A DNA stretch of 64,000 nt, taken from contig NC_068570.1 in NCBI RefSeq assembly GCF_025698545.1, forward strand, positions 310,001 to 374,000, given 5' to 3'. This document shows positions 7,071 through 52,900 of the stretch, piece by piece; positions within the stretch are counted from its first letter, which is position 1; each line of letters opens with the position of its first letter. Below the pieces are notes generated by a model. It saw only the letters and a program-made list of their open reading frames with translations. It was not told where the DNA came from and searched no databases. Source of the stretch: Gossypium raimondii. Taxonomy: Eukaryota; Streptophyta; Magnoliopsida; Malvales; Malvaceae. The translations under genes were made by a program, and so were the position numbers.

Positions 7071-10003
7071 ATGGCTTCAACATTCAGCGGCGATGAAACT
7101 GCTCCTTTCTTCGGCTTCTTGGGTGCTGCTGCTGCCCTCGTTTTCTCTTGTAAGCAAAAAAAAAAAAAAAGAATAATCAAATGACCTTTCTATGATTTTG
7201 GGAGTTTGGGTTTTGATCCAATGTTTCACAGGTATGGGAGCAGCTTATGGTACAGCGAAAAGTGGTGTTGGTGTAGCATCAATGGGTGTAATGAGACCGG
7301 AGCTGGTGATGAAATCGATCGTCCCGGTGGTAATGGCTGGTGTGCTGGGTATTTATGGTTTAATCATCGCTGTTATAATCAGTACTGGGATTAACCCAAA
7401 GGCTAAATCGTATTACCTTTTCGATGGGTATGCTCATTTATCTTCTGGTTTAGCTTGTGGACTTGCTGGTCTTTCTGCTGGTATGGCTATTGGAATTGTA
7501 GGTGATGCTGGTGTTAGGTACTTGCTTTTTTTGAATCTTTGATTAAATGATTCAGTTTATGTTTTAGTTGGTTTATGGTTTATGGTCGTATCAGTTTTGT
7601 TGCATTATTTTTATGTAGAATGTTGGTATTATTATATCTAGGGCCTTGATGTTTTTGTGTGGATGATCATAAGTTGAGCTTTTTTGTATTTATATTACCT
7701 TCGTTAACCCCCTAAATTGAAGTAGGGTCTGGTTTAGGCCTTGAACTCAATTTATCCCCTTAAATTAGTGCTATATGTTTTTTTTAGGGAGAGGGGGGGG
7801 TTCAAATTATGGTTTTGGTCTCTCTACCATTCTCAAAGTTGTGATTTAGTCCTTGTATGTTAATTTTGGCATAACTTGATACCTCTATTTTTATAACGTC
7901 ATTAGTTACTCAAAAAATTTATTTACCATGGATGATCACAAGTAGAGCTTTTTCTATTTATATTACCTTTGTTAACCCTGCAAATTAATTGGTTTTTGCT
8001 TAGATGCAGCTTTGGAGAAATTGAAGTGGGGTCTGGTTTAGGCCTTGAACTGAATTTATCCCCTTAAAACTAGTGCTGTGTTATTTTTTTTGGTCAAATT
8101 ATGGTTTTGGTGCATCTACCATGCTCAAATTTGGGATTTATCCTTGTTGGTTAATTTTGGCATACCTTGATCCCTCTATTTTTATAATTAGTTAGTCAAA
8201 ATTAAAAACAGTAACTATTTTCAATTAAAATATTGACTAGGTTTTTTCTCAAAAAGCCCTTTTCTAATTCATCATTTTGACACTATTTCTTTCATGTGTC
8301 AGCAATTTAATTATTTGGACTAAATAATGGCATTATAAAAGTAAAGAGACCAAATTATGTGAAATAAAGTACATGTGCTAAATCTGATATTTGAGTAGAG
8401 GGACCAAACCCATAATTTGATCCTTATTTTTCGTTTTGTTTAAGTTGAATTGATTAGTACCGTTGTTGATGATTTTTTTATTTTTTATTTTGCATTATTT
8501 TTGCAAGTATTATCACTCTTGAACTCTTGTCTTATTGTGTAATTTGTAAAGCTAATGCAGAAATTGAGATGCTGTAATGGTCCTTATGATTGTTGAGAAA
8601 GAAAAATGAAGCGTAATTTAATCATTATTCTCGTTATATATCCCTTAAGCTAGTGCTATATGTTATTTTTCATTTTGTTTAAGTTGATATTCATTAGTTC
8701 TGGTATTGAGGATTTGTTGCTTATTTTTGCAAGTAGTGTTACTTTGAAACTAATCTTTATGACTGTTGTTGATGATGATATTCGTTAAACTAGTGCTATA
8801 TTTCATTTTGTTTCATATCCCTTAAACTAATCTATACTTTTGTTTTGTAATACCTTAAACTGGTGCTATATTTCATTTGTTTAAGATGATATTCATTATG
8901 ACCGTTGTTGATTATTTGTTGCTTTATTGTTGCAAATAGTATAACTTTGAAACTCATCTTATCATGGAATTGGATTTTGTAGAGCTAATGCACAAATTGA
9001 GTTGCTGTTAGGGTACTTAAGAATTACTATTTGTTTAGGACTAAAAGATGAATGTATTTTAAGAATTATTATTGTTTTCTATCCCTTAAACTAGTACTAT
9101 ATCACTCTTGGGTTTGTATGCTAATAGTCATTTCGTTTAAGTTTATATTCATTACCACTATCGTTGCTTTACTTTTGTAATCGATATCATTTTGAAACTC
9201 CTATCTTATCGTGTAATTGGGTTTTGAAGAGCTAATGCACATTGAGTTGCTGTTAGGGTACTTATGAATTATGATTGTTCGAGAAGGAAAGATGAACGTA
9301 TTATAAGAATTTTTATCTTATCTATCTGTTAAACAAGTGCTATAATTCATTTTGTTTAAGATGATATTCGTTATGACCGTTGTTGATGATTTGTTGCTTT
9401 ACTGTTGCAAATAGTATAACTTTGAAACTCGTCCTATCGTGTAATTGGATTTTGTAGAGCTAATGCACAAATTGAAATGCTGTTAGGGTACTCGTGAATT
9501 ATGATTGTTTGAGAAGGAGCAATGTGTAGTTTAAGAATTATTATTGCTTTCTATCCCTTAAACTAGTGCTATATCACTGTCGGGTTTGCATGCTAATAGT
9601 CATTTTCTTTAAGTCGATATTCATTACTACTATCGTTGCTTTACTTTTGCAATCTGTATTAACTTCGAAACTCCTATCATATTGTGTAATTGGATTTTTT
9701 TTGGAGAAGGAAAGATGAATTTATTTTAAAATTTATTATTGTTTCATATCCCTTAAACCAGTGCTATATCACCGTCGGGTTTGTATGCTACTATTCATAT
9801 TGTTGTTTGTTAATTGTTACTACTACCATACTTTGAAACTCGTCTTATTATTTAAAATTGGATTTTGCAGAGCTAACGCACAACAGCCAAAGCTTTTTGT
9901 TGGGATGATCCTCATTCTTATCTTTGCCGAGGCATTGGCACTATATGGCTTGATCGTCGGCATTATTCTCTCATCCAGAGCTGGTCAGTCACGAGCCGAG
10001 TGA
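7071..10003 (+). CDS. VHA-c: V-type H+-ATPase 16-kDa proteolipid subunit c
   Basis: Subunit c forms the proton-carrying membrane ring of the vacuolar/endomembrane V-ATPase. Three exons, 7071-7149, 7232-7517 and 9871-10003, join in frame to 498 nt, or 165 residues, the usual length for plant VHA-c. The protein starts [20 protein letters not shown] and ends in SRAGQSRAE. Four hydrophobic helices lie at roughly residues 11-33, 55-77, 92-115 and 130-155. The proton-binding glutamate is E142, in the helix-4 context [11 protein letters not shown]. Intron 1 is 82 bases. Intron 2 is 2.35 kb and unusual: it holds a MITE and a tandem array of degenerate copies of the exon-3 acceptor region, described separately. 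The start was chosen because it gives the conserved N-terminus. Confidence 0.97.
7637..8090 (+). repeat. Direct duplication inside VHA-c intron 2 (about 290-bp unit)
   Basis: The phrase running from 'gatgatcataagttgagc' (near 7662), through 'ggtctggtttaggccttgaac', to 'ccccttaaattagtgct' is repeated from about 7932, where it reads 'gatgatcacaagtagagc'. Part of the flanking MITE arm ('caaattatggttttggt') is carried along. The unit resembles the more extensive array downstream in the same intron. Confidence 0.75.
8092..8423. mobile_element. Foldback MITE in VHA-c intron 2
   Basis: The element begins GGTCAAATTATGGTTTTGGT and ends with the near-perfect inverse ACCAAACCCATAATTTGATCC (332 bp). A truncated arm of the same element occurs at about 7800-7915 within the upstream duplicate. 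No coding potential is visible. Confidence 0.75.
8480..9870 (+). repeat. Tandem array of exon-3 acceptor-like units in VHA-c intron 2
   Basis: About five to six degenerate units, spaced roughly 230-250 bases in the 3' part, share two landmarks. One is 'cccttaaactagtgctat' (near 8641, 9079, 9553 and 9747). The other is a polypyrimidine/AG acceptor followed by 'agctaatgcacaaattga' (near 8981, 9230 and 9456, with a degenerate form near 8555). The genuine exon 3 begins with the matching 'agctaacgcacaa' at 9871. The intron therefore seems to have grown by duplicating the 3' splice site together with the first bases of exon 3. Confidence 0.8.
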
Positions 10004-14643: not shown

Positions 14644-17600
14644 TCAAGCTGGTGAGTGTAGAGAGGTCGGATCAGCTGAAGATGGAACTTCTGCTCCAAC
14701 CCTACACCCTTCCAACATAAAAACAATATCAGCCATGGCTGGTCTATCAAGTGGTTCAGGTGCAGTACAAAGGAGTCCAACTTTAACGCCTAACAAGAAC
14801 TCTTCCCACTCACTTGATTCAGGGTCCAACTCCAGCAACCCTGGCTCCAGCAACTCTGAGATTTGTCCTTTTTCCAATTGTTTTTTCACCCATTTCACAA
14901 TATCTTCTTCATCTTGGCTAAACATCACTGGTTTTCTTCCCGTGAGTATTTCGAGCAATACGATCCCAAAGCTATAAACATCGGCTTCTTTAGATGGTCG
15001 TCCCGTTAGAGCTGCTTCCGGTGCTACGTAGCCTAAAGAACCAACCGCGGTTGATGATGTTGAAGCTTCCGTTGGGGTTGCCATTATGAGTTTCTCGAGT
15101 CCAAACTCGGATAAATGAGCTTCGAAATCGGCGTCAAAGAGGACGTTTTGCGGCTTAATGTCACCGTGAAGTATCGACAACGAGTGCAAAAACGATAGGC
15201 CACGAGCGATGCCGAGGGCAATAAGATGAAGCATTGGCCAATTCAACATATGTCCATCTTGGTGAGATGCTTCTTGGAGGAGTGTAGCTAAGTTTCCATT
15301 AGGCATGTAGTCATAAACAAGGAGTCGTAAATCAGGCGGTCCGGCATAGTATCCTCGGAGAACCGTTATGTTCCGATGCTTTACCTTACCTAACATTTCA
15401 GCTTCCTTTTTAAAATTAGCTTCATCGATCGTTCCATCAACAAGACGACGGATCGATAACACCATCCCGTCTTGAAACGTAGCCTTGAAAACAAGTCCGT
15501 ATCGTCCCCTACTCAACACATTTTCCTCATCGAATTGCCTCGTCGCTTCTAACGTTTCCGCTAATGTTATCTTGTTATTGAACATAACTAGTTTCGGACC
15601 ACCATTTTCACCACTTCCACGACTTCGATCTGCTCCCGAACTAGCACTACCCGTACTCCGCTTCTTCTCTCCGGTCATCCACCTCTTCCACCACCGTAGA
15701 AGACTGTAAATGTAACCGCAACAAAACATGACAAATAGCCCAATACCACCAACGACCATAGCAATCAACAAAATCAGCTTCCTCTGTTTCTTTTTTCTCA
15801 CATTTTTACAGCCATTATTCAATGGCTTACCACATAAATTTTCATTCATTGAAAATATAGAACTATCATTGAATAAAGAACCTAATCCACTTGGAATCTC
15901 ACCTTCAAGATTATTTCTAGATAAATTCAAGTACTTCAAATTAGACATGTTTGAAAATGAATCTGGTATGTTACCTGTAAGACGATTTCCATCTAAAAGT
16001 AAAGTAATCATCAAAGAACAATTGGATATTTCTTCTGGGATTTCACCATTTAACTTGTTAGAACCCAAATCAAGCTCTTTTAAACGAGACAACCGAGAGA
16101 AATCCGCCGTTACATTGCCGATCAATCGATTCGAACGAAGCTGAATCACTTGAAGCTGAGAACAATTACCAAGCTCCGACGGGACCAAACCGGAAATTCG
16201 ATTATACGACAGTGAAAGCACCATTAATGAATGAAGAAATCCAAAAGTTTCTGGAATTTGACCTGTGAACACATTACAGCTGAGATTCAAGTATTGCAAA
16301 CCAACCAAGCTGCTAAAACCTTCGGGGATATCACCGGATAATTTGTTTTCGTTTAAAGCAACGATCTGCAAATTTGGTAACCCGAAAAGCTCAATAGGTA
16401 ATTCACCGGAAAGTTGCTGCTTACTTAAATCAAGGGATGTTAATTTCATTAAAGACCCAATATTCCCAGGAATTTTCCCGGAAAATCCACAAGCACTTAA
16501 GTTTAAAACCACCAAGCTTGATAAATCGGAAACCCCATTCGGAATTTGGCCAGAAAATTTGTTGTGACTAAGGTTTAAAATGGATAAATTACCCAACCGG
16601 AGTATATCTTCCGGTACAGTTCCGGTCAAGTTATTTCCACTCAAGTTCAACGTTCCGAGTCCTGAAATGTTACCAAACCCGACAGGAATTGAACCTGAGA
16701 ACAAATTTCCGGCCAAAGATAGGCTTTTTAACGTCTTTATTTGGGTTAAAAAGACCGGTAAGTTGCCGGAGAACCGGTTTCCTTCAAAATCAACGACCTT
16801 TAACGAACGGCATTGTAGGAGTTGACTCGGAACTGAACCGCTTAGCGAGTTGTTGGCTACTCTAAGCTCTTGTAAGTTTAAAAGGTTGCCAATTTCGACC
16901 GGTAATGAACCGGTGAAGAAGTTTCCAGAAATATCTAATATTTTTAACGTGGTCAAACTGGTCAACCAAGATGGAAAACCGCCATGGATGTGATTCTCGT
17001 GAAGGTCCAAAACCTCCATAGCCGGCGCCGCAAAGCAACTTCCATTATTTCGTGGCTTAATGACTCCAGTGAACTCATTGAATCCAAGCTCCACGATCTT
17101 CAACGACACCGTTTTATTCCCCGACGGTTTACAGAAAACGGTTTCCGGTACCGGACCGGAAAGTCCGTTACGAGATAGAGCAAGCACTTGAAGATTCGGA
17201 ACGGCGACGATGCTTCCCGGAAGTAGCCCTTTAAGCATATTGTCTTCAACGCTTAAATGTATCAACGAATAACAGTTCGCTATAGCCGACGGTAAAGTTC
17301 CGTACAACTGATTCGAGTCGAGCCAGAGGTATTGTAAATGTTGGAAGTTACCAATACTCGCCGGAACTTCACCGGAAAAGCGGTTGTATGAGAAGTTGAT
17401 GAGTCGTAGTTGAGAATCAGCCGAGAAATTCGACGGCATTTCACCGGAGAAATCGTTTGAAGATAAATCGACGTAGCGGAGAGACGGTTGAATAACGGCG
17501 GCGATCTTACCGGAGAGATAATTATGAGCCACATTAAGGATTTGTAAATTCGTGAGGTTAAAAACAGAAGCGGGGAGGTTACCGGTGAACGAGTTGTACT

Positions 17601-18000
17601 GGAAGTAAACGGCGCGTAAAAGAGTGCACTGAGAGAGCGCGTCGGGGATAGAGCCGTTAAAGTTGTTAGAATGAAGACTGAGTTTCCTTAGCTCACGTAA
17701 CTCGCATAACCGATCAGTAAGTCGACCACCGAGTTGAAGTCGAGGTAAGCGTAGCTCGAAGACACGGCGGTTGTAACAAACAACACCTCGCCAGTCACAG
17801 GGAGCCGACGGCGTGGACTCATCCCAACCATCGAGAACGCCGAAAGGGTCACTGAAAACGCTCCGTTTGAATGACGTCAGGGCTTGGATCTCTGATAAAG
17901 TGACGGTGCTGTGATGCTGAGCGGAACAAAATGGGATGACGAGGTTGAAGGTGAAGAGGGTAAGGAAGAAGAAGATGATTGCATTAGCCGTTATTTCCAT
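14644..18000 (-). CDS. MUS: LRR receptor-like (pseudo)kinase, MUSTACHES/At4g36180 type
   Basis: A single uninterrupted ORF of 1118 residues. A signal peptide (about 1-28) is followed by the LRR N-terminal cap (PSAPCDWRGVVC), about 25 leucine-rich repeats of the plant extracellular type, a transmembrane helix (about 741-763), a basic juxtamembrane stretch and a C-terminal kinase-like domain (about 815-1095). Collinear segments such as FNNKITLAETLEATRQFDEE and LEPGLLELDPESSEWEEFLL match my recollection of Arabidopsis At1g75640 (MUS) and At4g36180. MUS acts in guard-cell wall and pore symmetry. Three catalytic signatures deviate: the beta-3 lysine is R851 (LSIRRL), HRD is HGD (945-947), and DFG is EFG (E965). 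The domain is probably a weak or inactive kinase. The exact paralogue (MUS rather than MUS-LIKE) is moderately supported by the SEFGL motif. Confidence 0.95.
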   Translation of the reverse strand: MEITANAIIFFFLTLFTFNLVIPFCSAQHHSTVTLSEIQALTSFKRSVFSDPFGVLDGWDESTPSAPCDWRGVVCYNRRVFELRLPRLQLGGRLTDRLCELRELRKLSLHSNNFNGSIPDALSQCTLLRAVYFQYNSFTGNLPASVFNLTNLQILNVAHNYLSGKIAAVIQPSLRYVDLSSNDFSGEMPSNFSADSQLRLINFSYNRFSGEVPASIGNFQHLQYLWLDSNQLYGTLPSAIANCYSLIHLSVEDNMLKGLLPGSIVAVPNLQVLALSRNGLSGPVPETVFCKPSGNKTVSLKIVELGFNEFTGVIKPRNNGSCFAAPAMEVLDLHENHIHGGFPSWLTSLTTLKILDISGNFFTGSLPVEIGNLLNLQELRVANNSLSGSVPSQLLQCRSLKVVDFEGNRFSGNLPVFLTQIKTLKSLSLAGNLFSGSIPVGFGNISGLGTLNLSGNNLTGTVPEDILRLGNLSILNLSHNKFSGQIPNGVSDLSSLVVLNLSACGFSGKIPGNIGSLMKLTSLDLSKQQLSGELPIELFGLPNLQIVALNENKLSGDIPEGFSSLVGLQYLNLSCNVFTGQIPETFGFLHSLMVLSLSYNRISGLVPSELGNCSQLQVIQLRSNRLIGNVTADFSRLSRLKELDLGSNKLNGEIPEEISNCSLMITLLLDGNRLTGNIPDSFSNMSNLKYLNLSRNNLEGEIPSGLGSLFNDSSIFSMNENLCGKPLNNGCKNVRKKKQRKLILLIAMVVGGIGLFVMFCCGYIYSLLRWWKRWMTGEKKRSTGSASSGADRSRGSGENGGPKLVMFNNKITLAETLEATRQFDEENVLSRGRYGLVFKATFQDGMVLSIRRLVDGTIDEANFKKEAEMLGKVKHRNITVLRGYYAGPPDLRLLVYDYMPNGNLATLLQEASHQDGHMLNWPMLHLIALGIARGLSFLHSLSILHGDIKPQNVLFDADFEAHLSEFGLEKLIMATPTEASTSSTAVGSLGYVAPEAALTGRPSKEADVYSFGIVLLEILTGRKPVMFSQDEEDIVKWVKKQLEKGQISELLEPGLLELDPESSEWEEFLLGVKVGLLCTAPEPLDRPAMADIVFMLEGCRVGAEVPSSADPTSLHSPA

Positions 18001-21194: not shown

Positions 21195-23200
21195 CGTTGA
21201 ATTGGTTTGTATCTAAATCTATTTTTCTACTCGTTAATGGATGTCAATTCATCGTACTAATTGTTAAACCATTGGTTTGAGTTTGCTAGCGAACTCAAGA
21301 AAACCTTAATGAAAAATCCAACCTGATTTGCTCTAAAACTTGATTTAAGAGGGGAAAAAAACTGCTCTACAACAGGAGAAAACATCCGATCAGTTTGACT
21401 AGCTCGGTTATAAAAAAACCAGTATAATCAATCGACCCCATACATTAGCTGACCGATTGGTTGGTTCGACACCAAGTTCAATTATTGCAGTAACTTCTCT
21501 TTAACATACCAAGACCCTGTGTCACAGGCCTAGACACCTTTGGATGGCTTGCTCACAAGCATACCGTGACACCTGCACCTGCCTGAGACGGCATAAAACA
21601 ATATGAACATATTGATACATATATATATCATCCAGTTCAGTTTCAAGTTTGAGGAGGATATAATTCCCATAGTGCAACAGTCGTGTCTTCCGATGTGGAG
21701 GCCATTAGCTTGCGGTTGGTCGAATACGACACAGAGTTACACAGCAAGGGTAGATAATTTCATTTTCGACTTTAGTACAACATGATACAATAACATGGAA
21801 TAATTAATGCGAGTGAAGAATAGCATGATACATGCGGAGTTATAAATACGGGAGTTATAGCCCGTCAGATCATGAACACATTGAATGAGGTCACAGCAGA
21901 TGGATTAAAAGAACAAATAAAATGTCCGAATTTTAGCCTCGTAAATCTTTCATCATACCCTAGCGTGGTGATATTTCAGAATTGCCAGAGGATTTCCTTT
22001 GCGATAATTGTATATTCGAACTCTGCAGCCATGAGTGAAGTTAAAAAAGCAAGTTAATAGCAACCCTTTGCAGATAATCTGAGATCGAACTACATGGTTT
22101 CCCCTAGAGCAACTAAAATTGCAAATTAAATCGAGTAATCGAGATTCACTTTGAGGATGAACGCCTGAAGAGCATCCGAAATATAGATGATTCAGGAATT
22201 TAAAAAGAGGATGCAAGGTGGATACAAACCTATGGTCCCAGCCAGCAGTTGCAGCAATTTTAGAATCAGGCCGAGTTGCAGTGCTCGATATGCCTGGCCT
22301 TTCCAGACTAATTTCTTTCTTAACAACGCAAGAACCCTACATGAAGAATAACATGATAAGACGCATAAGAGAAAATAGCGTGATTTATGCTTTATGCTCT
22401 GTGAAGCCAGAACTATGGTTAAGCAAAGGACTCTACCGGCCCTTTTATCGTATTAAAGGATTCAAAGGAATCCACTTTTTGTTTGCCTCTATCATGATGG
22501 AGACTAAGATTAATGCGAAAAAACATGCTCGCAAAGCTAGCACTATGGTTCATCCAATGTCACTCTTTGACATTACTGGATCCGCAAAAGCATTCAAATG
22601 CAAATAATCGTAAATAAACACCATAGGATCAATTTGGCTAACGATTTTGAACAAAAATGCATTGGTCATAACTAAAAGAAGGCTGCTAGAGGGGTTGCGA
22701 TATATCTTGTTAGCAACCAGTTCATAGGGGGGTTTCAACGAGAATTACCGTGGGATAATCTAAATTGTAAAGTACAATCTTGTCATCTGCTGCCCCGGAG
22801 ATACCTCCATTGCATGATCCATCAATGCATAAACTTAGAACTGTGTAGAGAATAAGAATAAAACATATTTTATGAAGAAAAAGAAATTAGTGAAGGAAGA
22901 ATAAGATGAAGCCTAATACATGAGGAGTCTCCCATATTCTGGGTGGCACACCTGGCTCTGAATGGAACTTCACAGAAGTTAGAGGAACCCCAGGATACAG
23001 TATATCCCACCAAAGAATCGAACCATCTTCATAACTAGCAAATAAATCAAGTAAATCCCTAAGTGAGAATATCTTAGATAACTACTCCAAAAGTCGCCAC
23101 CATATCAAAAGTCAAAACCTCTAACTCAACCCTTTTTTGGAACACTAATTCCACAATTTGAAGAGCATGAATCTAAAAACAATAATTCTTTTATTTTATT
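21195..23200 (-). pseudogene. Truncated DSE1 copy (exons 9-13 only)
   Basis: Direct duplicate of 619-2665, retaining introns and covering only the C-terminal third of DSE1. Exons 1-8 and any promoter are absent. The acceptor before the last exon is destroyed: the minus strand reads TTGCTGTGTAAC where the parent reads TTGCAGTGTAAC (substitution at 21743). Other changes include Thr to Arg at the end of exon 12, Phe to Val in exon 11 and Arg to Leu in exon 9. The stretch encoding [20 protein letters not shown] is still intact at about 21964-22027. Low divergence suggests a recent event. It cannot make a normal DSE1 protein. Confidence 0.92.
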
Positions 23201-24681: not shown

Positions 24682-27600
24682 CTATAACAGAGGAGGAATG
24701 ACATTTTTCCAGCTGCTGGATCTTCGGGTTACGGATCGGGGCAAGATACTGAGTCCAACTACTTCCTTGGGTGCTTGACTTGGTTCCACAAGACCCAATA
24801 ACTTGGCTACCAGAGCTGCACTTTCCTTCACATGTCCCATGTCTTGTGTGTTTGTCCATAAACGGCGGGCTAACTGTGAGCTCCTCTGCTTTGTGTTCAA
24901 CCCAATTCCCCACTTCTTGTATAGTTCCTCTCTCTGTTTTTTCGAGAACTTCTTCTGTATTTGCTTGTATAACATTCTTCTCTCACGCATCAAATCCTTT
25001 GCACTGTCACCATTAAACCAATTACTTTATATTCAATCAGGTCTAAAAGGTTGTTTCCATATTTCAAGTCAGAATTTTTTTAGGAATTGAAATTAATTAT
25101 ATACTTTTACGAGAGCTAAAATGTAATTTTACCCTATATTGACTTATATCTTTATGGTTTTCAAAAGGACTAAATTAAAATTCTAGCATTTTTAGGAGAG
25201 AAAACTATAATTTTATCATAACTTAATATTTTATAAATTTAAGGGTTTAAAGAAGCAATTTCTCATTAGGGTGCCCCGGACCCTGCAGCACCCCTCCCTT
25301 GGCCCCTAGTGCATAATCTAGACATATGAATTGGGTATGGTTTGTTCTAAGTTAAAGTTGTTTTCGGTTGGAATTTGATGTTATTATTTTTAGTTAGGTA
25401 ATTATAGGTTCTCTTTATTTTGAATTTGAGTTATTTAAGATATTTGTTTAAATTATTTTGAGCTTAGATATTATTTTAATATATTTTATGTCCATTTTAT
25501 GGTCTAAGTTATGAAGTTTAGTTATCTGTTTTAACAATGTTGTTTTCAAGGTTTGACACGGTTTTATTTTTGGAGTGCAATATACATTATAATTGCAGCT
25601 AACACTTTTTGGTTAAGTTTGAATTAATTTGAATTTGAGCTGACTGATTCAAATCATTGAATTCAATTAAATCAAGTCGATCGAATTTGAATTTGAGTTA
25701 ATAAAGACGAATTTCAGATTCATACAAGAGTTTGACAAGTTTAAATAAGGCTAAATGTGCATTGTTATGTTCAACTAAGAGAATCGTAAATTATAAATGT
25801 CAAGTTGACTTTTTAAAATTAGATAAATTTGAGTTCGTGTTGATTAGGATGAATTTTTAAGTTCGAACAAGTGTATGATAAATATGGCCAAATGTGCGGG
25901 GTTATGTTCAATTAAGGGAATCTTAAATCATAATTTATGATTCAACTAAACTAAATAGAATTTGAGTAGGAATTAATTCAATTGAATTTTTTGAGTTAGA
26001 GTTTTTGGTTTAAGTAGAGATAAATGTGCATTACACTACTTGTATGTAAGAGAATCTTAGAAATTTTACCTTGAAGCAGCTGTGTCAATTGGACTATCTT
26101 TCCAACCATTTCTTCCCAATGAAGACATTGAGTTCTTCAAAAAAGACAATCTTCTGAGCTCTACCTCCATATACACAGAATCAGAAGGATCACCTTTGAA
26201 AAGCAAGATGAAATAGGTTCTGTGGATTAATGGTACGTTGCATTTATCCCAAAGCTCGATTATCGTTCTCTGCAGATTCTCGAATTCTTCAGGCCAACTC
26301 GAGTGCAGTTTCGTAGAATGGTTAGTTTCCTGTGAGTTCTCAGTCTTGGTTTCAGGTACCTACCATCAAACATATGTTAGTAGCTAAACAACAAAGCATT
26401 GCAGCATGTATTCATTTTGAAGTAGAAAAAAATGGAGAAAAGGAAGGAAATATTCATCACCAAATTCTTATCAATTTGCTTTTCTTGACATGTTTTTGTG
26501 TCACTACCACCTTCGGAAAAATCAATGGAGAAGGAAGTTCTTCTCTTGGAACCACTAGCAAATGATTTCCATGGTCGAGGAGGAAAATTGACTTCACTAC
26601 AGGTTTCTTCCACATCAATATCTTTTACACTTTGTTCTTCAGTGGAACCACTAGTAATAGAAGCTTGAGAGTTACATCTAGACATCTTTGCATTTCTGTT
26701 ATCGTCTTTCGAGTTAGAAAGCTTTTGAGAAAGGGTTTTAGCTCTTTCGATGAAGTCCTTTTCAGCTTCTGTGAAAGTGGGTACGGTTTCATTCTGTTGT
26801 GATTTCTCGAACCTAGGTGAAGATGGCATTGTCGTGACGATCGCCTTACAGCTTCTGCTCCTACTCATGCTACTAGCGGAGCTAGCTGCATCTAATAAAG
26901 CAGGTGAATCCCCCATAATGTGATACCTAACAAGGAACTTAATGGTCTTTTGTAGTTCCTGTACTTTTTGTTTCAATGCCTCACAAGTTTCATCTTTATT
27001 AACATGACTTGATCGTAAATCTTCTACATTTTCCTTTGGATTACTGGACAAGTCATCACCTTCCTGCTTTTCGATACTCGGTTCTGTCTCGGTTAGGGAT
27101 ACTTTTCCTTGCTCTTCCTCAGGATCAGCTGATAAATTATCAGCTTCGATTTCCTTGATAACAGCATCCTTCGTGGCCGGTTTTCTATCTTCCACATGAT
27201 CGGTCCATAACTCATTGGTTTCAACGGTTGGTTTCCCTTCATTGTTCTCAGGATTCAAAGAGGCAACTTTTTCTTTTTCATTCATCTCAATACTCGAATC
27301 TTCGAATTCAATGCATCGAACTTCCTTGCAGTTATCTTCGAACTTTTCATCTATTTTTTGAGCAACCTTGTCCCAACCCTTGCTTGGATCAGGCTCAACG
27401 AACTTCGTAGTGATGCCATCGAGATGACATTCCTCTTCAGAGTTCTCTGGATGCCCATCATATTGGTTGTTGTTGTTGGTTATAGGCACACTAGGTGTAA
27501 CAATATCCTTATGATTGCTGTAATCAACCGTACATGGAACATTGGTCACTTCTGACGAATTCGATGAATATTCTCCACTCTTTAGCATTTGAACTTCTCT

Positions 27601-29716
27601 AACCGACAGAAGCAAATTCTCAACTCGAGATTGAGCTAGATCACGTTGTCGAGTCAATTCTTCAATCTCTTTGGCCATCTGTAGATTCTCAAACAGAGAA
27701 AAAGCAAGGTTTAACATGTGTAAATCGTGTATGTTATGACATGTTCTTATTTTCCTGCGTTGAACATACAAGTTCCTGCAATCACCTGCTCAATGAGTAG
27801 CTCTTTTTCTCTTAGCAAGCTAGCAGTATCACGTTTGACTGGAGCTGATCCCAAGCTCTTCATTTCATTCTCCAGTTTAGCCAATTCTCTTTGCAATTGC
27901 TTTACTAATGCCTTATCTGACATAACTAAATTGACCTGTGCATTAGTTGTTACCTCTTTAGCACAACTCGCAAATGAGAGAGTGTTTCTCGATTGCTCGA
28001 CATGACTGCGGTCGGGACTCATAGTGCAAATGATGGCTGTTCTGGCATTGCCTCCTAAGGCATTCTGGAGTATGCGTGTTAGCTTAGAGTCTCTGTAAGG
28101 TACATGGCTATTTCTTCCCTTGCTGCAAAATATAGTGCCTTGTAAAATGGTCATAAACAATATTATGCTGTGTATATGAGTTAAAGATGCCAAAATTGAA
28201 GAAAAAAAGAAAGCTGTTCAACCTTAGTTTGCGAATCACAGTTCCGAGAGTTAATAAACTCCGATTTATGTGGCAGCCTTCTTTCAATCTTGTACCAGCA
28301 GATAAGGTCTGAGAGGCACGCTCACTTCCAGCTAAATCAACAAAGTTCTGTATAAGAAACCCCAAGTTAAATTTCATTACTTATTCAACTTACAACACAA
28401 CTGCCTTAGTGTTTTAAGAAGGTAATTGTATTATACCACGGAAGCTGAAAGAATGCTTGAATTTTCGGCTCCGGCATATTCACGAGCTGAGCTTTCAATC
28501 GTCTGCAAATAACATCATTAAATGTAGCTGTAAGGCTAGCACAACATTGATAAAGAAGGTTTATAGTCAAGTACAGGATGCCTACCAGCCGTAAAATCTG
28601 ATGCGATCTCGAGCTAGTTTCGTTCAAAGCGGTCTCTCCTATCTGCCTTTGAGCTGTGCAAACATGTATGCCAAAATGCATATAAAAATGCCATCCAGTG
28701 AAACAAAAGAAAATGAGACAAGATCAATGGTGTTTTAGAAACACTTCACCTTCACATATAGAAAGGAGCTCCTCAAGATGGTCCTTGTCTCTTAGAGTCT
28801 CCTCGGCTAGTCTCTCCACAACGGTTCCCCTCTGTGAATGGAAAAAAACGGTATCAGTATTGGTAAGGTAATGCTCATGCGGAAAGGCGACCGGAAAGGT
28901 TAAAGAAGGGAAAAAGAAATTTGACCTCTGGATCATCTAGGAGTCTGAGTGGGGTACTATCCAAGCTAAGGAGATCTCTCACAGCTTCATTATAAATCTC
29001 CATGGCAGAGAATTTCACCACAAATTCTCTTTCTTTATGCTAAGATATTGATCAGAACAAAAATGTTATTTTCCTACATTATAGTAAGAAAAAAAGTGAT
29101 CCCAAAGTTTATCATTTTACCTTTTCAATGTAATCATATATATCTGCTACTGCATATTCAGTGATTCCCCTCATTGTATATGTCTTTCCACTACTTGTTT
29201 GCCCATATGCAAATATGCTTGCTGAAGGTAAAAAAAAGAAAAAACCCATCACTAAAAACATCCATTTTATTAAATAGTTATACATACCATGAAATAGAAA
29301 CAAAGATTACTTACAATTGATGCCATTTAGTACTGAAAGTGCAATGTGTTTAGCTCCTTCATCATATACTTGTTTCGTAGGGCAGTCACAGTCATATACT
29401 CTGTCTATTCACAATAAAATTGAGAAGATTACCATGATTAGAAGACAATCTCAATTCCAAATATTGTTTCACAATGAAAAGACAAGCAAATTATGTTTAC
29501 TATGTTAACAAAATGGATAAAAAAACAGGGGAAATGCGTACCAAATGTGTAAGCGGCAGGGAACATAGAGCGTTCAGGCAAGCTATTCTTGAAAATAATG
29601 GTGTCATTGTTAATGCATTCCCAATCAGATTTTCTCTCTTTATCGTTCAATGGCCTTATTCTAACAGAAACGAAAATTTTCTCTCCTGGCCCTTGAAATT
29701 CTGAATCTTCAATCAT
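24682..29716 (-). CDS. Kinesin-7 family motor protein (KIN-7, NACK-type C-terminus)
   Basis: Plus-end microtubule motor. Plant kinesin-7/NACK proteins act in the phragmoplast and in mitosis. Twelve exons join in frame: 29542-29716, 29315-29404, 29121-29221, 28926-29039, 28750-28831, 28586-28653, 28437-28502, 28223-28347, 27786-28122, 26461-27678, 26070-26359 and 24682-25003. They total 2988 nt, or 995 residues. The motor domain (about 14-330) has the P-loop GQTSSGKT (95-102), switch I NETSSRSH (198-205) and switch II DLAGSE (236-241). A coiled-coil neck ([15 protein letters not shown]) and a long acidic/serine-rich stalk follow in exon 10. Exons 11-12 encode the DUF3490/NACK C-terminal domain ([31 protein letters not shown]). 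The ATG at 29716 was chosen as the first ATG before the motor core. An in-frame ATG at 29767 would add 17 basic residues. Resembles Arabidopsis At4g38950-type kinesins. Confidence 0.95.
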
Positions 29717-34456: not shown

Positions 34457-34895
34457 GTTAAATTAATATTTAGGACCTACACTTGACAACTTTTTCTACA
34501 TTAGGGCTTGAACTTTTTTATGATCTAAGTTAGACCCTAAACTTGATAATTGTTCCTACATTAAGGCTTGAACTAGGCAATTGTTCTCACATTAGGCGTG
34601 AACTTTTTTTTTATCCACTCTGAACTTGGCATTTGTTCCAATATTGGGGGAAAAACTTGGCAATTGTTCTCAAGTTGGAGTCTAAACTCTAGGTCTTTCA
34701 AGGACTAACTTGGACAAAAAAATTTCAAGCCCCAATATAGGAATAATTGTCAAGTTCAAGGCCTAACTTAAATAAAAAAAAGTTTAATCCCCAATGTGAA
34801 AACAATTATCAAGTTAAGGGCCTTTAAACAAAAAAAGCTCAGACCCTAATATGGGAAAATTTGTCAAATTTCGACCCTAAAAAGTGATTTAACCC
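34457..34895. mobile_element. Foldback element, family D copy 1
   Basis: Ends GGGTTAAAT and ATTTAACCC. The interior has several short direct and inverted copies of 'cctacattagggcttgaac' and 'cttgacaattgttcc'. A full relative is at 36032-36492 and a fragment at about 35560-35805. Confidence 0.65.
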
Positions 34896-35024
34896 TATAC
34901 ATGTATATACACATTACCATTGAAATGAAAAATATGACATACATTTTAAAAAGGATATTGAACTCTTATTAGATGAAATCAAAGGTTGCAATTCATAAGG
35001 GCCAAAGCAAGACATAAGATAAGC

Positions 35025-35315
35025 ATGTCTAGGTTAAGTGAGAGGTCAGTGATGCATATCTTTATTGTGACAATGATGGTTATTATAATGACATCGATGA
35101 TCACCATAATAGCAACTGATGAATCATCGCCATTGTCACCATCTTCATCAGCAACATCTATTTCCTTCAATGAGATCAAAAACAAGGAGTTGCAAGGGAA
35201 AGCAGGTGTAGAGGAATATGAAAAACCTAATTATTTTGTTGAGGATTATGGTGTTTGGAACCCTACACCTAGATCAGGTGGTGCATATGCATCTCCAGTT
35301 CCCCATGCTGCTTAA
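35025..35315 (+). CDS. Putative secreted signalling-peptide precursor with C-terminal DYG motif
   Basis: A 96-residue ORF starting at the ATG in 'aagcATGTCT'. The codon opening the frame further upstream is TTG and was not used. The N-terminus is basic, followed by a strongly hydrophobic stretch (HIFIVTMMVIIMTSMITIIA, about residues 11-30) fitting a signal peptide, then a Ser/acidic spacer. The last 25 residues are distinctive: acidic residues precede D74-Y75-G76, followed by VWNPTPRSGGAYASPVPHAA. An acidic-Asp-Tyr start plus Pro/Gly-rich tail is the layout of tyrosine-sulfated plant peptides (PSY, CIF, RGF and TWS1 families), but I cannot assign it to a known one. Both sides are flanked by family D repeats, yet the ORF itself is not repeat-like. 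Confidence 0.6.
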   Translation: MSRLSERSVMHIFIVTMMVIIMTSMITIIATDESSPLSPSSSATSISFNEIKNKELQGKAGVEEYEKPNYFVEDYGVWNPTPRSGGAYASPVPHAA

Positions 35316-36031
35316 TTTTCAGGTTTCTGCATCATATTTCTCCTTCATATATACAGATGTATTATTGTAATTCTTTATACGTCTACTGTCTTCCACAAAT
35401 TGCATAATAATCAATGTCGTATATGTGATAAAAGGTTTTTTCTATGTGTATGCAACGTTTAATATGGATTGCCTTACCTTTATCTTGAATATATACGCAC
35501 TTAAATGTTGGAATTTGTGTTGATAGAACTTGAATCACAAGTTCAAACTTTTCAAAAATGTTTGGAGCCCCAAATTCATAATTGTTTCTGCATTAGGATT
35601 TGAATTTTTTTTTGTTTTGTTTAAGTCAATCTTTGAATTTGGCAATTGTTCTTACAATAGGGCATTAATTAGACAATTATTCCTGCATTAGGACTCAACG
35701 CAGGAACGTAGGAACAACTGCTAAATTCATAGGCTAATTTAGGTAAAACAATAGTTTAAATCTTAATGTAGGAACAATTACTAAGTTCAAATCTCAAATA
35801 ATGCATTAACACTTAAGTTTTTCACATCATTGAATGCTATTTTTTTTAATACATATGTCCAATATAGATATCAAATAATAATAAAATAGTATATTTATAT
35901 TATTACTTTACTGATTGAATTGGTGTCACATTGTGATTTTCATAAAATCTATTAGATAATAAGAAATTATGAATGGATGAAAGAGTTCTAAAATTAAAAC
36001 AAAAGAAAATAATTTCCTCTTAAATTTGTAA

Positions 36032-36492
36032 TGGGTTAAATTATTTTTTGGACTTAAACTTGACAATTATTCTTATATTGAGGTCTGAATTTATTTTTGC
36101 TCTTAAGTTAGACTCTAAACTTGCCAATTGCTCCTACATTGGGGCTTGAACTATTTTTTTGGTATAAGTTAGGCCTTGAAATTAGCAACTGTTATCATAT
36201 TGGAGCCTAATTTTTTCCAAGTTAGTCCTTGATATTCCCTTAAAACCCTAAAGTTTAGGCCTCAATGAAGGAATAATTGCCAAGTTCAGACCTCAATGTG
36301 AGAACAATTGCTAAGTTCAGGTCCCAATATAAGAACAATTACCAAGTTCAAATATTAACTTGGACAAAAAAGGAGTTCAAGCTCTAATGTGAGAACAATT
36401 ATCGTATTCAATGGCTAATTTGAAAAAAAAAATTCAAGCCCCAATTAAGAATTGTTGTCAAATTCAGTCCTAAATAATGATTTAACCCATTC
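36032..36492. mobile_element. Foldback element, family D copy 2
   Basis: Starts GGGTTAAATTATTTTTTGGAC and ends AAATAATGATTTAACCC, with multiple internal 'caattgttctcacattgggg'-like units in both orientations. Confidence 0.65.
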
Positions 36493-36863
36493 ATAATTTA
36501 GTCCTTCAATAAAAGTTGTAATCCACAGAAAATAGAAGTGTAATGGTCCTCAATAAGTCCAAAACTAGCTTTGGCCCAATCCATCGTTAGACCTAACTAT
36601 ACAGCCTGCTGGGGTATGTGCAGAGCAGAGATGGTGGCACATATGACAGGGATCTGCTTTAAATTAGCTAAGGTAGGTTATGATGTGGGTGGTCGGCACA
36701 AAGATGAAACCTTTTGGCCCGATATTGACCAACAACAACAACTTTTGTCGTTTTACTAGCACGTTCAAAACGATGGAATCAAGAGGACTATAATTAATGT
36801 AAAGATGGACATAAACGTTGTGCCATGAAAAGCAAAGCACATATAACATCGAATTGATATAAG

Positions 36864-38129: not shown

Positions 38130-39576
38130 TTAAAAAGGCCTAGATCTCTTAGTTACAACGGTAGGAGGAGGATTGATTTGTGGGACTGTAAAAGCATCAT
38201 TTGTCCATCTCTTGTTACCTTTCATGGTTGTTTCTTTTAACCCAATTGGTCCTTCCATTTGAGGAAGATGATAAAGAGATTGTGAAGGATCAGAAAATGG
38301 CAACATTCCATCATCATTCTATCAAAAAGAACGAAAGAAAAATAGTAAAGTAACCCAAGTCATAAACTATCAATAAGTTACGTTTCGATAACTTAATTTC
38401 AAAAAGTTACAAAATAATTATTAAATTATTCAAAATATTTCAGCTAAATCATGCTGAATTGTTAAAATTGCTACTATATAACCTTTTCTATTTCACCACT
38501 TGTATCAATCGGAAGCTCCCCTTCCTTTTTTCTTTTACAATTTGTTTTTTTATAAAATAATTTTCAACGTAATGACTTTATGAATTAAAATATAAACAAC
38601 TTTCTTCTTTAATCTCGACATTGCTATCAGATCAACTTAAATTTAAGATATATTCTTTTACTCATCGATAAATGTTAATTTACCGGACAAATCGTTAAAT
38701 CATCGCTTGTAGCTTGTTAGTCAAATTATTGACAACCCAGTAACATAAAATTCTTTTTTTAATTTTTTAATAATTATTTTATAACTTTTAAAATTAAATC
38801 ACCAAAAATTTAACTGAATAAAAATTAATCACTTTGTGGTGTAGTTTACACCAAAGAAAATAAACCCATTGTTCAGATCCCAATAAAAATAAATCAATCA
38901 AAAAGATCAAACGGTGGAGAATGAATGCAAACCTTACAGAAACCAATGGGAGATAGAGATGGAGATGAATCAAGTAAATCTTCAACATGCCAACCAGGGA
39001 GCATCTCAATTAAGTACTCAGATATACTACTTGTTGAACCATCAACTTCATTTGACGATGGATTGAAATCTGGTGGTGAAATGGAGGAGATGGGGTTGTT
39101 AACTTTGAATTCAGGGACTGAATCACCACCGTTGGATGATGATGATGTTGTATTATAAGTAGCTGATCTTGATGAAAGTTTAACACCTGTAAGAAGGAAC
39201 CTGTTATGTCTTTGTGTATGTTCATTAGCTGAGTGAATAGGGACATCGCAATCCCTACATAAGATCGCCCTGTCTTGTTGACAAAACAAGAAAGCTCGTT
39301 TCTCCTAAAAAAAAACCCAACAATAGAAACATTAAATTCTAACACGAAATTTTCAAGACAGTGATGAAATTGTTTAAAAATCACCTGACAGATATCACAA
39401 AGAGGGACTTGTTTAGAAGAAGAACAAGGATGGAGAAGGGTAAAACGTTGGTGTTTAGAAGCAAGCTTGTTGGCATGGTGGACACGATGGTCACAGGCGT
39501 CACAAAGGGCGGCTTCGTCGGCGGTGCAGAAGACAGTGGCCTCCTCTTTGTAACACACGTCGCACTGAATCTTCAT
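38130..39576 (-). CDS. Double B-box zinc-finger protein (BBX20/21-like)
   Basis: Three exons, 39385-39576, 38933-39304 and 38130-38318, join in frame to 753 nt, or 250 residues. Two B-box zinc fingers are present. The first starts MKIQCDVCYKEEATVFCTAD with paired Cys/His ligands (residues about 5-47). The second is split by intron 1 (PLCDICQ|EKRAFLFCQQDRAI, about residues 57-107). There is no CCT domain. The conserved tail motif SISEYLIEMLPGWHVEDLLD and the basic-Pro end are typical of the BBX18-25 group, which act as HY5-associated regulators of photomorphogenesis and brassinosteroid responses. The ATG at 39576 gives the canonical MKIQC start. Intron 2 contains a MITE fragment. Confidence 0.93.
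38360..38730. mobile_element. Family C MITE fragment in the B-box gene intron 2
   Basis: Shares 'actatcaataagttacgttt', 'ttcaaaaagttacaaaataat' and an interior 'gacattgctatcagatcaac', then 'tactcatcgataaatgttaa', with the copies at about 39823, 45573 and 63409. One terminal arm is missing. Confidence 0.65.
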
Positions 39577-51129: not shown

Positions 51130-52900
51130 GTAACAGCCCGATTTTAGTTAAATCGAAACAGTGGTTTCAGAACCACAAATCCAAGGTCAAAAAATTATTT
51201 TAATATTATTTTTGGTATTTACAGCATGTGATTATATATGTGTGAAAGTTTCGTAAAGAAATTTTAATATTTGAATGCTTAATTTGGTAAAAAGGACTAA
51301 ATCGTATAAAGCATAAGAGTTGTATTCTATTAGCTAAAGGTATTAAATAGCTATAGAAATTTAGTGTGGAAGTCCTTATTTGGTAATTAGCCCATTAAAG
51401 AGATAGTGGAATATGATGGTTTGGCATTTTGTGTAATAAATAATGTTTATAAAGGTTAATTATGTAAATTGGTTAAAATGACAAAACAAATAAAACAAAA
51501 AGGCAAAGTTATCATCTTTAACCATTATTCAACCGAAAATTGAAAGAGAAAGAAGCCATGGAAGCTTGAACTTTAGGCCAACCCCATTTTGCTTGCATGC
51601 GAGTATCATTTGTCCAGTTTTTTTTATAATTTTTATGTTTTTGAGATCGTTGCTTCGTGTTCTAGTTACCCATACCCTAATTTTTGAATTGGTGGATGAA
51701 TTTGTGAGTTTCCATTGATGATAGATTGATGTTTTTGAATGTTGATGATGGAAAATGAATAATTGTTGATAGATTAATATGTTTTGTAAAGTGATTTTTG
51801 ACAAAAATGTCAAATAAGGATTAAATTGTGAAATATGAAAATTGAGTGGTTGAAATGTGAAATAAATGAAAGTTTTGGGCTGCTAGGGGCACTATAGTAA
51901 TTCGGCTAAGCTTGGGTTATATTGAATTGTGTGAATTTTGTATATTTGTGAAATAGGGACTAAATTTAATAAATATGAAACTTTAGGGGTTAAAGTGTAA
52001 AAATGTCCAAATAGGTATTTTTGGATGAAATTGAATGAGTAGGTGATTAAATGAGTTAAATTTGAATTCATATAGATCAGGAAAGAAAGAAATCGGATTT
52101 AGATCGGGGGAAATCGAAAGTTGACGAGTAGTTGATCCGGTCTGTTCGTTTACGTACGAGGTAAGTTCATAAGTAAATAAATGTTTTTGAATTCAAATGT
52201 ATATGTTTTATATATTGCCGAATTGATTTATATGTAGATATATATATATATTGCCGAATTGATTTGTATATGTATATATATTGCCAAATTGATTTAAGAT
52301 CCCGTATAAGACTATATTTGAGATATGACATCGGCATCGATTTGAGATCCTGTATAAGACCATGTCTGGAATATGGCATCGGCATCGATTTGAGATCTCG
52401 TATAAGACCATGTCTAGGATATGACATCGGCATCGTTTTGAGATCTCGTATAAGACCATATCTGGGATATGACATCGACATTGATTTGAGATTTCGTATA
52501 AGACCATATCTGGGATATGAGATCGATGTGAGACTTCGTGTAAGACCATAGCTGGGCTATGGGCATCGATATGAGATTTCCATGTAAGACCATGTCTAGG
52601 ACATGACATTTGTACGATACATTATGTACGAGTTTTCCCGAGTATCCTTAGTATTCCAAGTGGTTCAACGGGTAATCCAAAGATTATGTTAAAGAAAAGA
52701 CAAGGTATGATCATGTTGAAAGGATACAGGTATGTACGAAAAATTCATGAGTAATGAACTCGATGTATATTGAACATTTGGCAAGAATGTAAATGAGTAA
52801 GTCATATTTATGAGAATGATCTTGTGATGACCTTGTGATTATAGGTCTATGCTTATGAGGTATAAATATATGGTAAATTTTATTGATGATTGTGTGAGGC
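51130..52900 (+). mobile_element. LTR-like insertion (probable solo LTR)
   Basis: The insert in the family B element begins TGTAACAGCCCGATTTTAG. It carries retrotransposon-LTR-like features: a TG start, no coding capacity, 'gatccggtctgttcgtttac' near 52135 and an internal tandem repeat. I recall similar TGTAACAGCCC sequences as abundant in cotton. The right boundary and a 5-bp target duplication could not be fixed, so the end is approximate. Confidence 0.5.
52287..52610. repeat. 48-bp minisatellite inside the LTR-like insertion
   Basis: About six units of the type 'gatttgagatctcgtataag' followed by 'accatgtctgggatatgaca' and 'tcggcatc'. The period of 48 is a multiple of three, so several reading frames stay open on both strands and mimic repetitive proteins. 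These are not genes. Confidence 0.9.

Follow-up and report, generated by a model that had tools for sequence, protein, structure and literature searches.

In CIF peptides the tyrosine of an Asp-Tyr (DY) motif is sulfated and two prolines are hydroxylated; the peptides act via GSO1 and GSO2 (PMC11534595; PMC13082318; PMC11756074; PMC11891196). Their precursors are about 80-100 amino acids long, with the peptide located at or near the C-terminus (PMC11534595; PMC13082318), and loss of the sulfate lowers the affinity of CIF peptides for GSO1/SGN3 about 100- to 1000-fold (PMC13074997). Among the Arabidopsis members, the peptide table of PMC11534595 gives CIF3 (AT5G04030) as DYGSWSPTPKIPRRSPAPIPH and CIF4 (AT1G28375) as DYGFWNPSPVYGGGFPYPGPVPH. 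Both are extended at the C-terminus, and in CIF4 the site cleaved by SBT5.4 follows the histidine of PVPH (PMC13082318). At the other end of the peptide, the CIF4 cut is listed between Gly and Asp (PMC11756074), and SBT1.8 cuts the related peptide TWS1 at a Glu-Asp junction (PMC13082318). As described for Arabidopsis, CIF3 and CIF4 originate in the tapetum; once the pollen protease SBT5.4 has cut them, they signal to the middle layer and drive pollen-wall deposition (PMC13082318; PMC11891196). CIF homologues were reported in 29 of the 33 plant species covered by one survey, whose section 2.1 does not name cotton (PMC11855783).

Here we present a locus of this kind in Gossypium raimondii, located in a stretch of 64,000 nucleotides (the window). 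With a probability of roughly 0.92, its open reading frame (ORF) encodes a CASPARIAN STRIP INTEGRITY FACTOR prepropeptide of the CIF3/CIF4 subgroup, which would be processed in the CIF manner and signal through GSO1/2. By sequence, the assignment is based on a full-length peptide block, its C-terminal position and the finding that the genome also contains related CIF blocks and a GSO1-like gene.

The open reading frame and its parts

The coding sequence is a single ORF on the forward strand (35025..35315), running from an ATG at 35025 through 96 codons to a stop codon that ends at 35315. Its main parts agree with the preliminary description of the locus, which had pointed out a 96-residue ORF with a basic-hydrophobic N-terminus, a Ser/acidic middle and a C-terminal block that starts with Asp-Tyr-Gly after acidic residues and ends in ASPVPHAA. 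The N-terminus begins with Arg and His and is then hydrophobic to about residue 30, with 15-residue Kyte-Doolittle means of 1.99-2.26 in windows within residues 7-30. Residues 1-30 (35025..35114) form a putative signal peptide, as judged from hydropathy and a hand rule calling for small residues at positions -3 and -1; the rule permits a candidate cut after Ala30 (MITIIA/TDESS) and other cut sites too. The pro-region (residues 31-73, 35115..35243) is Ser-rich, then acidic, and closes with Glu73. It is followed by the predicted mature peptide DYGVWNPTPRSGGAYASPVPH (residues 74-94, 35244..35306), as delimited by alignment with Arabidopsis CIF1-4, TWS1 and four further peptides encoded in this genome, so that the C-terminus of the protein reads E-DYGVWNPTPRSGGAYASPVPH-AA. 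The two last residues, an Ala-Ala extension past the conserved histidine (35307..35312), lie beyond the point corresponding to the CIF4 cut site given in PMC13082318. Tyr75 is a candidate for sulfation, and Pro80 and Pro82 are candidates for hydroxylation. A short precursor of 96 amino acids with its peptide block at residues 74-94 fits the CIF3/CIF4 subgroup in size and in C-terminal placement.

The length of the ORF is weak evidence for a gene: when the surrounding 2.5 kb were randomised by a first-order Markov model, 23 of 500 sequences still contained an ATG ORF of at least 96 amino acids, as did 18 of 100 when 9 kb were treated in this way. What exceeds chance is the C-terminal block and not the ORF length. 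The former figure is what could be said for an ORF that arose by chance and codes for no function; chance, however, offers no explanation for a full-length match to CIF4 and CIF3 located where a CIF precursor carries its peptide, and we regard such an origin as scarcely conceivable. Short, fast-changing precursors are easily missed: the family is a known one, yet the full ORF had no match in the Pfam scan or in a sequence search of the PDB (phmmer). The Arabidopsis CIF4 peptide itself gave a single weak and irrelevant match against the PDB (E 4.1).

Likeness to CIF3 and CIF4

The block was compared with 27 Arabidopsis peptides taken from the table of PMC11534595, from which the PSK peptides were excluded. 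The peptide DYGVWNPTPRSGGAYASPVPH aligns end to end with CIF4 (67% identity) and with CIF3 (48%). Local alignment scores of the C-terminal block were 77 for CIF4, 66 for CIF3, 33 for CIF1, 29 for CIF2 and 23 for TWS1. When each peptide was shuffled 2000 times, no shuffle scored as high as the real CIF4 or CIF3, whether the first three residues were fixed or free. The likeness to CIF1, CIF2 and TWS1 is weak, since shuffles with a fixed start often reached their scores (74, 153 and 432 of 2000, respectively). Translation of the window in six frames gave 9730 segment-query pairs, of which the two best both came from the ORF; the next pair scored 41.

A set of ten peptides, made up of the window peptide, Arabidopsis CIF1-4, TWS1 and the four further peptides of this genome, was also aligned. 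D1, Y2, P7 and P9 are invariant in all ten, corresponding to the DY sulfation motif and two conserved prolines. In this comparison the window peptide groups with CIF4 and next with CIF3, ahead of the CIF1/2 and TWS1 groups. It has the form DYGxWxPxP ... P[V/I]PH of CIF3 and CIF4 rather than a PPFKLIPN end, and the window protein has a tail beyond the histidine, with Ala-Ala after His94.

With Arabidopsis CIF4, the window protein shares a precursor of similar size (96 and 102 amino acids), the C-terminal block, a DYGxWNPxP start, a Gly-rich centre and PVPH followed by an extension. The two differ in that the centre of the window peptide is two residues shorter and in that its tail is Ala-Ala, whereas the residues past the histidine of CIF4 start with Gly-Ser-Leu. 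Compared with CIF3, both peptides have 21 residues at equal spacing, with D1, Y2, G3, W5, P7, P9, P18, P20 and H21 identical, but the centre is Gly-rich (SGGA) in the window peptide and basic (IPRR) in CIF3. The DYG start, P7 and P9 are also shared with CIF1, CIF2 and two CIF1/2-type blocks of the same genome (L007 and L008), all of which end in PPFKLIPN and not in SPVPH. TWS1 and two TWS1-type blocks of the genome (L010 and L011) share the DY start, PxP and a terminal histidine with a C-terminal extension; their end is KASIKPGPIEH and their tail longer.

An Asp-Tyr start is common to several families of sulfated peptides, with GLV9 as the sole exception in the table of PMC11534595, and the ORF might on this ground belong to the PSY or RGF/GLV peptides or to a new DY-peptide family, its likeness to CIF being due to convergence. 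The 22 non-CIF peptides compared, however, score at most 22, against 77 for CIF4 and 66 for CIF3, and the PSY and RGF features, as they appear in the peptide table of PMC11534595, are missing in the window peptide. For PSY, the feature derived from the nine PSY peptides of that table is Ala/Pro-Asn/Asp-x-x-His-x-Pro after the DY start; the window peptide lacks it, and the best PSY score was 22. RGF/GLV peptides have 13-16 residues and an HN or NN end in the same table, whereas the window peptide ends with VPH-AA; the best RGF/GLV score was again 22. Membership of another family, known or new, is very improbable.

The ORF is most likely a new member of the known CIF family, as its sequence suggests, and not the first of a new hormone family. 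The preliminary description had proposed an undescribed precursor of a family that it did not recognise. This finds no support: the block is of the CIF3/CIF4 type, on the scores for CIF4 and CIF3 and on its being the sole match of both peptides in the genome. The same description had stated that CIF peptides begin with DYG and placed the molecule in the right class, but did not match the block to CIF. Its proposal that the precursor is secreted and tyrosine-sulfated, and that the ligand begins with Asp-Tyr-Gly, finds backing at the level of sequence and homology. What is new here is the peptide sequence, the Ala-Ala tail and a genome in which no other CIF3/4-type gene was found. In the literature searched, VPHAA was the one of five letter strings of the window peptide to occur, in 4 unrelated papers, and DYGVW occurred in one paper, on bacterial sterol-binding domains; two reviews contain CIF3, CIF4 and Gossypium together.

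Searches of the genome

When the 750.8-Mb genome was searched with CIF4, a single match was obtained, the window block, over positions 1-23 of 23 (67%, E 0.476). The CIF3 query likewise had one match, the same block, over positions 1-21 of 21 (48%, E 6.59). Neither E value is significant alone; the weight of these searches lies in a sole match that falls on a place named beforehand. Short-peptide queries can detect family members, since the TWS1 query recovered two TWS1-type blocks of the genome (E 3e-4 each). A scrambled CIF4 had no match in the genome, and the empty result of such a search shows little alone.

The DYGxWxPxP motif alone is no evidence, because its degenerate DNA pattern matched 3 places genome-wide against 75 for the reversed control. 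The three were the window gene and two places that are not CIF genes: one (L006) is a short frame lacking P[VI]PH, and the other (L004) sits within a 131-residue ORF that we take to be a piece of a 4-alpha-glucanotransferase. A second match of the full-length query (L002; E 6.69, 30%) contains two TAG stops and was treated as noise. Three peptide queries, one full-length query and the strict pattern thus revealed no other CIF3/4-type block in this genome; a diverged or intron-split copy could escape them.

The repeat-rich setting reported for the locus is borne out, as foldback repeats lie on both sides of the gene, the downstream one dispersed. Neither repeat belongs to the gene. The upstream MITE-like element (34474..34823) has direct copies from 34474 and an inverted arm reaching 34823. 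The downstream one (36021..36500) was recognised by its foldback and its genome matches, of which there were at least 100 on many contigs, with both strands and overlapping pieces counted and the best 40 of 566 candidates being scored. Among the matches listed, the longer ones from other parts of the genome show about 68-79% identity, which suggests an old family. The region 34880-35520 between them matches itself alone in the 750.8-Mb genome (E up to 0.001; simple repeats and very common words skipped).

A gene surrounded by dispersed repeats might be a silent or dispensable CIF3/CIF4-type copy, its frame intact and the gene unused. Against this stand the unbroken frame with its hydrophobic N-terminal region, intact block and stop, and the result of the three peptide queries: as no second CIF3/4-type block was found, the gene is not an obvious spare copy. 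We therefore consider a silent copy distinctly unlikely.

Related peptide and receptor genes

The PPFKLIPN pattern had 2 matches in the genome and none for its control. The CIF1/2-type blocks are DYGRYDPTPALVKPPFKLIPN on C3 (L007) and DYGKYDPSPALAKPPFKLIPN on C13 (L008); the TWS1-type blocks L010 and L011 lie on C6 and C5. The frames of all four break shortly upstream, whereas the window ORF is continuous. An intron seems to precede each of the CIF1/2- and TWS1-type blocks, with the mature peptide as if on its own exon, and this difference from the continuous window ORF was counted against the CIF3/CIF4 explanation.

A receptor was sought with a fragment of GSO1 (164 residues, as printed in its alignment to PDB 6s6q). 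That entry combines GSO1 as chain A with CIF2 as chain C. The fragment gave at least 117 LRR matches at E 1e-20 or better, the best 150 of 2815 candidates being scored. The best of those listed is located on C12, 74% identical and in an open frame of 1177 residues; the second, on C3, is 57% identical. None of the at least 117 matches listed, from the best 150 of 2815 candidates, falls in the window. The window does encode an LRR receptor kinase by Pfam (14644-18000), whose two top PDB matches are FLS2 and GSO1. Many LRR kinases would be expected to match in this way. This, together with the lack of a window match among the GSO1-fragment matches listed, led us not to take this kinase as a linked receptor.

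Proposed processing and function

By analogy with known CIF biology, the precursor would enter the secretory pathway, where the tyrosylprotein sulfotransferase TPST would sulfate Tyr75; Pro80 and Pro82 would be hydroxylated. Subtilases would presumably cut at the Glu73-Asp74 bond, a Glu-Asp junction like the one that SBT1.8 uses on TWS1, and also after His94, which would strip the Ala-Ala. Receptor kinases of the GSO1/GSO2 type could then bind the resulting peptide of 21 residues, with the anther as the most likely site, and this binding would coordinate the tapetum and pollen-wall formation.

We propose, tentatively and as somewhat less probable than the contrary, that in this plant one gene does the work divided between CIF3 and CIF4 in Arabidopsis, that losing the ORF at 35025-35315 would disturb the pollen wall and that the Ala-Ala tail would provide a minimal test of whether activation needs trimming after the histidine. 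If it is the sole CIF3/4-type gene of the plant, it makes a clean target for the study of male fertility.

Other features of the window

Other neighbours identified by Pfam are an ATP synthase subunit C-type proteolipid (7192-7542), a DUF3490 protein (24682-24990) and a B-box zinc finger (39010-39576). The ORFs at 26377-29716 look kinesin-like, although the two of them that were scanned were without a Pfam match. The gene order of the window seems to resemble that of the Arabidopsis blocks near At1g75540-75640 and At4g38920-39070. We know of no CIF gene in either block, and for this reason the CIF gene of the window may be non-syntenic with Arabidopsis.

Overlapping ORFs of repeat sequence with MPMSYPRHGLIRDLKS-type units occupy both strands at 52167-52609, a pattern that points to a short tandem array more than to a gene. 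Two ORFs of 105 amino acids on the forward strand (1755-2072 and 22290-22607), about 20.5 kb apart, have translations differing by one residue, which suggests a repeated element or a local duplication.
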